From Thermodesulfovibrio thiophilus DSM 17215 (lineage in GTDB: Bacteria > Nitrospirota > Thermodesulfovibrionia > Thermodesulfovibrionales > Thermodesulfovibrionaceae), in assembly GCF_000423865.1 (NCBI RefSeq), contig NZ_AUIU01000011.1, forward strand, positions 124,001-188,000: a DNA stretch of 64,000 bases. Direction: 5' to 3'. This document shows positions 4,671-6,888 of the stretch, in pieces (position 1 is the first letter of the stretch; each line of letters starts with the position of its first letter). The notes beneath the pieces are model-generated. The model was not told the origin of the DNA. It ran no database searches and was given only the letters and a program-made list of their open reading frames with translations. Both the position numbers and the translations under genes were made by a program.

Positions 4671-5975
4671 TTATAATATCAAATTAAAGTTGTTAACTTC
4701 AATTTTCAGTTTTTTAATATCTTCTCTGTTATATCCAGCAAAAATTTCTGCAAAAATTGAGTTATTTGTTAAAAGGGGGTCTAATTCATCAGTAATAATA
4801 TTTTTTGTTACAAACTCCTGCCAGTAATAAGTTCCTTTGATTGGTGAAAATTCGTTCAAGTGAATACGAACCTTTAAATTTTTAAGAAAATCAACTCCTG
4901 CCCTTAACTCATCAAAACTCTGTCCTGGAAGTCCATACATTATATAGACTCCAATGTCCTGAGATGCGAAACCTGCTTCTTTTAAAGAATAAACTGCTTT
5001 TTCAAGTTCATCATTTGTTACCTTTCCTCCAGTTTCTAACTGTCTTTTTATATCAACAGTTTCAAGGCTTAGTCTTAGTGTTTTAAATCCTGAGTATTTC
5101 ATAAGTTGAGCAAGTTCTTTATCTATAAAACGAGCGTGAACTCCATTGGGAGTATGAAATCTGAGATCCAGATTTTTTGCAATGATTTTTTTAAGCAATG
5201 GTTTTATGTGTATGTCAGATTTATAAAGAAGAGCATCGTCATAGAAGGCAAAATCTCTAACTCCTTTTAAATGTAATTCTTCAATTTCTTCCATAATTTC
5301 ATTTAACAATCTCTGTCCAAATGACTCATATAAAATGGAGGATGCACAATATGAGCACTTGAAAGGACATCCAGTTGATGTTAAAATCGGAGCGTAAGGC
5401 AGTTCTCTGTAAAATCCCATCTGCCACCAATATTTCGGTTTATCAGTAATCCGTTCAAGCTTTAACCCAATTCGTTCGAGTTCATTTATTATTCCTATAT
5501 TAATATGTCCTTTATAAATAAAATCAGCATTTATCTGTTTTTCTGCATGTTCTTTATACAGTGTGGCATAAATTCCACCGAGAATTATTGGTGTATTAAT
5601 AAAATAGTTTCTTAAAATTTCGATAACTTCTTTCACTCCATACCACCAGTAAGACATTATTGAGGTTACAAATATGAAATCAACAGAGCCCAGATTCTTT
5701 AAATTTGCAATGAATTCTTCAGTTGAAATTCCATATTTTTTATATTTTCTTGGAATCTTTTTTAGAATCTCGGGTTTTTCCACAACTTCTGCTCTGTATT
5801 TTCCTGTTCCGTATTTTTTAATTTTGAATGAATTACAACAATCGATTAAAAAGAGCTCTACGTTAAACTGGCTTAGGAATTCAGCAACCTTTAATAATCC
5901 AAGAGGCTTTGCCCAGAAATTATAGGCAGCAAAGTCATAAATCCAAGGATTTATAAGAAGACATTTGAATTTCAT
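4671..5975 (-). CDS. Radical-SAM protein with B12-binding-like N-terminus, substrate unknown
   Basis: Radical S-adenosylmethionine enzyme. The cluster-binding motif CPFKCSYC gives Cys203, Cys207 and Cys210. The TIM-barrel features after it include DFAFYDDALL and the region LRLSLETVD. The first 165 residues (LLINPW, PLGLLKVAEFL, ILGGIYATLY) look like the cobalamin-binding fold that precedes many such enzymes, but the cobalt-ligand motif DxHxxG is absent, so it may be structural only. It starts at the ATG at 5975, overlapping trmI by 4 nt. Cotranscription with trmI and a tRNA makes an RNA or cofactor substrate thinkable, but nothing in the protein proves it. Confidence 0.8.
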   Translation of the reverse strand: MKFKCLLINPWIYDFAAYNFWAKPLGLLKVAEFLSQFNVELFLIDCCNSFKIKKYGTGKYRAEVVEKPEILKKIPRKYKKYGISTEEFIANLKNLGSVDFIFVTSIMSYWWYGVKEVIEILRNYFINTPIILGGIYATLYKEHAEKQINADFIYKGHINIGIINELERIGLKLERITDKPKYWWQMGFYRELPYAPILTSTGCPFKCSYCASSILYESFGQRLLNEIMEEIEELHLKGVRDFAFYDDALLYKSDIHIKPLLKKIIAKNLDLRFHTPNGVHARFIDKELAQLMKYSGFKTLRLSLETVDIKRQLETGGKVTNDELEKAVYSLKEAGFASQDIGVYIMYGLPGQSFDELRAGVDFLKNLKVRIHLNEFSPIKGTYYWQEFVTKNIITDELDPLLTNNSIFAEIFAGYNREDIKKLKIEVNNFNLIL

Positions 5976-6757
5976 GAAAGCTTTCTAAAAACAGCAATAA
6001 ATCCAGTATGGGCGACCATTCTTAATGCTGGTCTGAGACTTAAGCCCTCCTTTTCCCATTTTCTTTCAAGAAGTTCAAAAATTCCGATTTTGTAAAGACT
6101 CTTAGAAAAATTCTTTTCAAATTCTTCCATTAGACTGTAAATTTGAAGAACCGTTGTAAGATAACAGCCAATAAGTCCTCCGGGTTTTAACATTTCAACG
6201 GCTTTATCAAGAAAAAGCCATGGTTCAGTAAGATCAAAAATCAGTCGATCAAAATCCTTTTCATCTATTTTTTCTGAAATGTCTTTATTTAAGAGAGTTA
6301 ATTCTCCAGATGGTTCATTGACTATGAATTTTTCGATATTTGTCTTTGCAGTTTCATAAAATTCTTTTCTTTTTTCACATGAAACAACTCTGCCAGTCTG
6401 TCCTACAGCTCTTAAAAGATGAAGAGTTAAAGCTCCAGATCCAGTTCCCGCTTCAAATACCTTTGCACCAGGGAATATATCAATAAGTGTTAGAAGTCTT
6501 GATATATCCTTTGGATAGATTATCTGGGCACCTCTTTTCATTTTAAGAACGTAATCTTCAAGAGAGGGTTTAAAAACCAAAAGAGGTTCTCCATGCGTTG
6601 ACAGTACTTTAATAGCATCAGGCTTACCTATTATATCATTTAATGCTACATTACCTTTATGAAAAGAAAAAGATGCATCTTTTTTCAACGTGATAAGATA
6701 TTTTCTTCCCTTTGAATCAATTAAGAGAGCTAAATTTCCTTCTTTGAATGCTGACAA
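5972..6757 (-). CDS. trmI: tRNA (adenine-58-N1)-methyltransferase
   Basis: Methylates A58 in the T-loop of tRNAs, a modification important at high temperature in bacteria such as Thermus. The Rossmann methyltransferase motif I is VFEAGTGSGALTLHLL (near residue 96), with CEKRKEFYETAKTNI after it and the acidic motif FDLTEPW further on. An N-terminal beta domain precedes the catalytic domain, as in the GCD14/TrmI family. The start is TTG at 6757, behind the Shine-Dalgarno GGAGGG; no better start is available. It begins only 17 nt after the 3' end of a tRNA-Gly gene on the same strand, so the enzyme may be cotranscribed with a substrate tRNA. Confidence 0.9.
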   Translation of the reverse strand: MSAFKEGNLALLIDSKGRKYLITLKKDASFSFHKGNVALNDIIGKPDAIKVLSTHGEPLLVFKPSLEDYVLKMKRGAQIIYPKDISRLLTLIDIFPGAKVFEAGTGSGALTLHLLRAVGQTGRVVSCEKRKEFYETAKTNIEKFIVNEPSGELTLLNKDISEKIDEKDFDRLIFDLTEPWLFLDKAVEMLKPGGLIGCYLTTVLQIYSLMEEFEKNFSKSLYKIGIFELLERKWEKEGLSLRPALRMVAHTGFIAVFRKLS

Positions 6758-6774
6758 CTTCCCTCCAATAAAAA

Positions 6775-6846
6775 AGCGGGCGACGGGATTCGAACCCGCG
6801 ACCTTCAGCTTGGGAAGCTGACACTCTCCCGCTGAGTTACGCCCGC
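6775..6846 (-). tRNA. tRNA-Gly (anticodon CCC)
   Basis: Complete cloverleaf on the minus strand. The acceptor stem GCGGGCG pairs with CGCCCGC, and the D arm contains AGCGGGAGAG. The anticodon stem TCAGC/GCTGA encloses the loop TTCCCAA, giving anticodon CCC. The T arm GCGGG-TTCGAAT-CCCGT is standard and the discriminator is T. CCA is not encoded, so a CCA-adding enzyme is needed. A run of six T starts with the discriminator base, and the trmI ribosome-binding site follows a few bases later. Confidence 0.97.
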
Positions 6847-6858
6847 AAACTATATATT

Positions 6859-6888
6859 TTTATATCATTGAGATTAAAAAGATGTCAA
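6859..6888 (-). promoter_or_regulatory. Sigma-70-type promoter of tRNA-Gly
   Basis: On the minus strand a perfect -35 TTGACA (6888-6883) is followed after 18 nt by TATAAA (6864-6859), about 12 nt before the mature tRNA 5' end at 6846. It probably also drives trmI and the radical-SAM gene. Confidence 0.72.

Follow-up and report, generated by a model that had tools for sequence, protein, structure and literature searches.

We examined a 64,000-nucleotide (nt) window from the thermophilic bacterium Thermodesulfovibrio thiophilus DSM 17215 (contig NZ_AUIU01000011.1, positions 124,001 to 188,000), in which the gene for tRNA-Gly(CCC) stands 17 nt ahead of trmI, encoding tRNA (adenine-58-N1)-methyltransferase, and trmI is followed by a gene for a radical S-adenosylmethionine (radical-SAM) protein. 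These genes probably form a tRNA-headed operon, in which trmI would be reached by read-through from the tRNA promoter, RNase Z would cut behind the discriminator base U73 and translation of the radical-SAM gene would be coupled to that of trmI. A preliminary description of the window had already proposed a single unit headed by the tRNA, and this is strongly supported, at the level of sequence, by a gene order kept in 12 of 13 genomes and by a gap devoid of promoter-like sites. The observation itself is confirmed as real. The arrangement is of an ordinary type and, in the proposed scheme, neatly joins the 3′ processing of a tRNA to the 5′ end of an mRNA. All coordinates follow the numbering of the window; G000 is the window's own genome, and other G and L numbers label sampled genomes and loci.

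The probable transcription unit and its conservation

Read in the sequence of the minus strand, the order is an extended −10 promoter, tRNA-Gly(CCC), a 17-nt leader, trmI and the radical-SAM gene. The promoter (6859–6888) consists of TTGACA (6888–6883), an 18-nt spacer and TATAAA (6864–6859), with TG one base ahead of the −10 hexamer (TGA before TATAAA), and transcription is predicted to start about 5–7 nt upstream of the tRNA. This promoter had been pointed out before; our built-in scanner is silent on it because it demands T at −10 position 6, and the same arrangement (TTGAC[AT], 18-nt spacer and TATAAA preceded by TGN) recurs ahead of tRNA-Gly(CCC) in 12 of 13 genes of the genus. The tRNA (6775–6846) was located identically by ARAGORN and Rfam (RF00005, 70.3 bits), in agreement with the preliminary description; it encodes no CCA and ends in U73 at 6775. 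Behind it, the 17-nt spacer (6758–6774) comprises the U-rich trailer TTTTTATT and the Shine-Dalgarno (SD) sequence GGAGGG (6766–6761), which was correctly recognized earlier but lies 8 nt, and not 7 nt, after U73. By scan, no promoter-like site occurs in the 17-nt gap, the interval between 6775 and 6757 in which a separate strong start site had been named as evidence against a single unit, and only three hexamers of the window between the tRNA start and the trmI start codon match TATAAT at 4/6 positions.

The open reading frame (ORF) beginning with TTG at 6757, 17 nt after the tRNA, spans 5972–6757 on the minus strand and encodes 261 amino acids. It matches PF08704 (GCD14; 6.5e-21, 75.6 bits, cut-off 26) and PF14801 (TrmI-like_N; 2.5e-11, 43.8 bits, cut-off 24), aligns end to end with Rv2118c (PDB 1i9g; residues 4–260, E 5.5e-51) and, over residues 11–259, with chains named TrmI (5c1i, 6.9e-41; 5c0o). 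By homology, the product is a TrmI-type methyltransferase predicted to form N1-methyladenosine at tRNA position 58 (m1A58), and both this identity and the TTG start stand as first described. Full-length homology and both Pfam domains liken the protein to other bacterial TrmI enzymes; we claim no difference in the protein, and the unusual point is the place of its gene.

We searched 16 genomes of the genus, including that of the window; 13 have a full-length trmI match, and the other three are 56–66% complete. The comparison among relatives suggested in the preliminary description found the tRNA, T-run and trmI in this order, with the tRNA-Gly(CCC)-trmI junction intact, in 12 of the 13. At these 12 junctions, U73 is followed by five T in ten genomes, by four in G003 and by six in G005, the SD contains GGAGG, and the start codon is TTG in 11 and GTG in one. 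An alignment of 11 of the 12 shows that promoter, tRNA and leader are held, with the trailer and SD nearly invariant, and that the sequence ahead of the promoter has diverged. In G004 (L141:1122–1520), the tRNA is split by about 312 N and its 3′ end joins trmI as in the other genomes. An intron was considered here and not adopted: 15 nt of the tRNA stand on both sides of the N run, which may be an assembly gap or a real insertion.

The exception is G011, where tRNA and trmI lie on the same contig but 2.9 kb apart (L140:1226–4169), separated by genes that by eye resemble threonine synthase and a pyridoxal-phosphate-dependent enzyme of Cys/Met metabolism. The displaced trmI is preceded by TTGCCT, an 18-nt spacer and TATAAT with an extended −10. 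A junction kept in 12 of 13 genomes, together with an exception that combines a 2.9-kb gap with a promoter-like site of its own, makes co-transcription of tRNA-Gly(CCC) and trmI very likely, and it supports, again from sequence, the earlier suggestion that trmI depends on read-through from the tRNA promoter. A phylogeny of the radical-SAM protein recovers the genus as one group (support 99/97), with G005, which has the junction, as the first branch, the other 12 genomes together (98/96) and G011 nested within a group of five (90/96). Read most simply, the common ancestor of the genus already had the junction, which was later disrupted in G011; this genome offers a natural test of the dependence of trmI on the tRNA.

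The T-run and tRNA 3′ processing

The T6 at 6775–6770 includes U73 as its first base, as had been noted, and its role can be judged from other tRNAs. Trailers that begin with five T follow 4/45 tRNAs of this genome, namely all three tRNA-Gly and tRNA-Ser(GGA), a glycine enrichment with a Fisher p of 2.8e-4 that was computed after the pattern was seen. Behind tRNA-Gly(TCC) and tRNA-Gly(GCC), tRNA-Thr and tRNA-Cys, respectively, follow 7–12 nt downstream. Across the genus, the T-run after U73 in these spacers is at least 4 in 20/20 and at least 5 in 19/20 (10 per tRNA, from this genome and the glycine-tRNA-bearing loci; two of the 20 regions read, L167 and L171, have tRNA-Ile and tRNA-Ala in their place and were not counted). 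Since polymerase must cross these runs to make the next tRNA, such a run is elsewhere a trailer that does not halt transcription, which weakens the idea of a partial terminator. One of these spacers, between tRNA-Gly(GCC) and tRNA-Cys (G000:C5 near 8600, L063), carries after the tRNA the letters TTTTTATTGG, the same as those after tRNA-Gly(CCC); the GG of TTTTTATTGG belongs to tRNA-Cys in L063 and to the trmI SD in the window.

The preliminary description had seen in the T-arm hairpin and T6 a partial terminator, an idea weakened by the 7-nt acceptor strand that separates the T-arm from the run. A form of the proposal with the acceptor stem in place of the T-arm takes tRNA and T6 as a partial intrinsic terminator or attenuator at which most transcripts would end, with minor read-through giving low trmI expression. 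The minimum-energy fold does place a G+C-rich 7-bp acceptor stem exactly up to the U-run, but this stem belongs to the whole cloverleaf, and the scan finds neither a terminator-like site nor a short-loop hairpin. G011 bears on the proposal in two ways: its tRNA keeps the promoter and has lost trmI from the site, and its trailer reads TTTAATATA and not T6, so the T-run goes with trmI in this sample; yet termination would be harmless there, the next ORF of at least 80 amino acids on the strand beginning some 250 nt further along, and the T-run is missing all the same. With similar runs read through between tRNAs, termination at T6 is unlikely, and a tRNA 3′ trailer is the better interpretation of the run.

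For the processing of this trailer we propose RNase Z, because the tRNA encodes no CCA. An excerpt of PMC2777011 states that, outside Escherichia coli, tRNAs without an encoded CCA are cut by RNase Z; here the trailer is weakly structured, and the genome encodes a protein of an RNase Z subfamily (NF002558, 371 bits, cut-off 315) and has two matches to the CCA-adding type PF01743. Encoded CCA is found in 4/45 tRNAs of this genome, 3/45 in G001 and 29/44 in G026, which belongs to another family of the order. These counts include only once any copies that share both the tRNA and the first ten bases of the trailer; raw Rfam matches number 45, 47 and 44 in G000, G001 and G026. Among the best-scoring 19 of a longer list of tRNA-Gly(CCC) loci from other families, 16 encode CCA, and none of these 19 genomes has a strong TrmI match.

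In the resulting scheme, RNA polymerase would start a few bases upstream of tRNA-Gly(CCC), pass the tRNA and its U-rich trailer, and run on through trmI and then the radical-SAM gene. An RNase P-type activity would trim the 5′ end of the tRNA, RNase Z would cut directly after U73 and a CCA-adding enzyme would complete the molecule. The same cut would create the 5′ end of the trmI mRNA, UUUUUAUUGGAGGGAAG-UUG, a short and little-structured leader of barely more than the ribosome-binding site. An mRNA end set in this way fits the earlier proposal that trmI expression may depend on tRNA 3′ processing. The radical-SAM gene would be translated by coupling through its 4-nt overlap with trmI. The likely effect is steady trmI expression bound to a strong tRNA promoter. 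The scheme suggests that, where few tRNA genes encode CCA, as in this bacterium, tRNA maturation can also serve to form mRNA 5′ ends.

Several observations weigh against this scheme and against the history proposed for the junction. G008 (L011) lacks the usual promoter upstream of the tRNA, yet its junction is intact. G011 shows that trmI is able to live apart from the tRNA, and its promoter-like site, one of 2 found against a shuffle mean of 2.0, is weak evidence by itself. The tree of the genus stands on one protein, with the G011-bearing branch at 90/96. The RNase Z candidate falls under the cut-off of the equivalog model TIGR02651, the cut behind U73 could come from another endonuclease, and the T-run may serve other roles.

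Origin and meaning of the linkage

Many tRNAs of this genome stand directly before an ORF: 9/45 are followed within 70 nt by an ORF with an SD (7 within 26 nt), compared with 7/45 in G001 and 5/44 in G026; ORFs were accepted on length and SD alone, and the counts for G001 and G026 each include at least one dubious ORF or start. The trmI junction may thus not be a lone case, with its gap of 17 nt being the shortest of the nine. The other eight, with gaps of 22–53 nt, are on G000 contigs C2, C10, C12, C14, C16 and C18 (L051, L060, L071, L076, L142, L149, L153 and L155). Judged by eye, six of the genes behind them look like tuf, secE, rplT, prs, galU and one for a flavodoxin-like protein; the remaining ORFs follow tRNA-Met and tRNA-Sec. 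Two loci of another family (L097 and L099, from G059 and G018) show by eye, within about 30 nt of tRNA-Gly(CCC), an SD with a reading frame other than trmI that starts with GTG; each may be a tRNA-headed unit of independent origin.

Beyond Thermodesulfovibrio, we found no tRNA immediately ahead of trmI in the 30 best-scoring loci of the phylum, in two of family f7 or in 12 from actinobacteria; the flanks scanned span about 1.5 kb, rising to 5 kb in the actinobacterial set, and some stop at contig ends, L048 having no upstream DNA. The only tRNA at these loci is a tRNA-His in L015, on the far side of trmI and on the other strand. As far as sampled, the tRNA-Gly(CCC)-trmI junction appears to be a trait of the genus Thermodesulfovibrio within a known kind of operon. 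We found no report of it among the papers listed on trmI and m1A58, on Thermodesulfovibrio tRNA or on tRNA-mRNA transcripts and tRNA-headed operons, in which coverage of subscription journals was thin.

The restriction to one genus allows for a neutral linkage, in which a single event in the ancestor of the genus placed trmI after the tRNA, whose promoter it uses, and the order persists without selection for coupling. This is compatible with a tRNA-headed operon and denies only a use for coupling. The survival of the displaced trmI in G011 with its own promoter-like site speaks for it, as does the frequency and mixed nature of tRNA-headed ORFs; the near-invariance of trailer and SD, set against the turnover upstream of the promoter, speaks against it, but plain constraint on processing or translation would give the same pattern. 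We regard neutral linkage as a serious contender, a little short of an even chance.

The preliminary description had gone further and suggested a possible feedback link between tRNA maturation and trmI mRNA. In such a link, trmI expression would be governed through processing of the shared transcript, either by TrmI itself or by how pre-tRNA-Gly(CCC) is modified or folded. The genus-level conservation and the shortest of the nine gaps would suit such a link, and the tRNA has A58 and U60, the latter described in part of PMC6418473 as a positive determinant of Thermus thermophilus TrmI. However, at least 40/45 tRNAs parse with A58 too (several of the others were parsed only crudely), so nothing sets tRNA-Gly(CCC) apart as a substrate of TrmI; the statement that the enzyme acts on the class of molecule encoded in front of its gene holds in this general sense alone. 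Similar gaps head genes seemingly unrelated to tRNA modification (by eye tuf, secE, rplT, prs and galU), no covarying structure was found in the leader, and no tRNA precedes trmI in the loci scanned outside the genus. A feedback loop is conceivable, finds no positive support here and is very improbable. If the coupling were regulatory, it would link the supply of a tRNA-modifying enzyme to tRNA synthesis. In a specific version, the joint transcript would be a self-sensing device in which TrmI or m1A58-dependent folding of the pre-tRNA alters the rate of RNase Z cleavage behind U73; translation or decay of the 17-nt leader would then change, and trmI output would track the state of its own substrate. 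To this version we assign only an outside chance.

A leader hairpin, in which the U-run pairs with the A-rich first trmI codons and hides the SD, was rejected as exceedingly improbable. Pairs of this sort appear in the minimum-energy fold of tRNA and leader, and the consensus of the alignment shows them too, the majority being able to form in a majority of its 12 sequences, but the consensus energy is a small −1.34 kcal/mol, several pairs are G-U, none of the 10 pairs has two-sided changes, and the leader alone (6774–6741) folds worse than most shuffles (179/200 at least as well).

We return to the tRNA-headed operon as the preferred reading, for which the promoter motif upstream of the tRNA, the lack of such a motif in the gap and the conserved order are as expected. 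Regnier and Grunberg-Manago, by the title of a 1989 paper, reportedly found that tRNA release acts on the downstream mRNA in E. coli metY-nusA-infB. That operon, headed by tRNA-fMet, resembles the present one in having a tRNA as the first gene of a protein operon. The protein genes differ, and the tRNA is released there by RNase III, whereas RNase Z is the likely enzyme here because the tRNA lacks CCA and ends 17 nt from the start codon. In the pairs tRNA-Thr-tuf and tRNA-Trp-secE, the tRNA is likewise directly ahead of the gene, at 52 and 25 nt in this genome (by eye); these pairs also occur in G026, of another family, whereas tRNA-Gly(CCC)-trmI was seen only in Thermodesulfovibrio.

Distribution of trmI, RNase P and the radical-SAM gene

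TrmI matches over cut-off occur in 157/295 genomes. Among the sampled genomes of the order, strong matches are patchy and confined to Thermodesulfovibrio and two genomes of family f7 (31–34% identity). The trmI product is at most 46% identical to those of other Nitrospirota families and 44% (full length) or 46% (over a 129-amino-acid fragment) identical to those of Actinomycetota, a near-equal similarity on which we claim no origin. Transfer together with an actinobacterial proteasome cluster was rejected, as no match to the ligase of prokaryotic ubiquitin-like protein (Pup) was found in ten genomes of the genus or in G021, G043 and G104; G077, of another family, has two Pup-ligase matches.

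Bacterial type-A RNase P RNA (RF00010) gave no match in G000, G001 and G026, with 11/14 controls positive, in a search that did not extend to other RNA types or rnpA. All three genomes encode a protein matching PF08745 (PIN_5), the family that includes the protein-only RNase P HARP. A passage of PMC12153264 names Thermodesulfovibrionales on its way to HARP-positive genomes. The relevant part of PMC10941002 places HARPs in Nitrospirae and states that most such bacteria outside Aquificae also carry rnpA and rnpB.

The radical-SAM gene (4671–5975, minus strand) encodes 434 amino acids with a CxxxCxxC motif at residues 203–210 and matches PF04055 (1.2e-20, 74.8 bits, cut-off 29.5); C203, C207 and C210 are invariant in seven aligned sequences. 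Its 4-nt overlap with trmI (ATGA or GTGA), seen earlier in the window, is present in 13/13 genomes. The N-terminal part has a weak B12-binding-like match under the cut-off (PF02310, 23.9 bits, cut-off 32.1). None of 20 listed matches to named NCBIfam radical-SAM families (PhpK, BchE, HpnJ, MiaB/RimO and others) exceeds its cut-off, the best reaching 65.5 against 600 bits. The predicted fold (seven-sequence alignment, mean predicted local distance difference test score 71) resembles MgmA, AprD4, CysS and the RNA-acting MiaB about equally, and the best match to a solved sequence is a tryptophan C2-methyltransferase (8.7e-9), so we assign no function.

Ten genomes from other families carry orthologues of the radical-SAM protein (50–57% identity), with neighbours that look mixed by eye, and 8 of these genomes lack a strong TrmI match. 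On these grounds we rejected a constant association of the gene with trmI; the pairing is a feature of the genus, and its context gives no tRNA-related function. In G011, a nucleosidase-like ORF (by eye) lies behind the radical-SAM gene.

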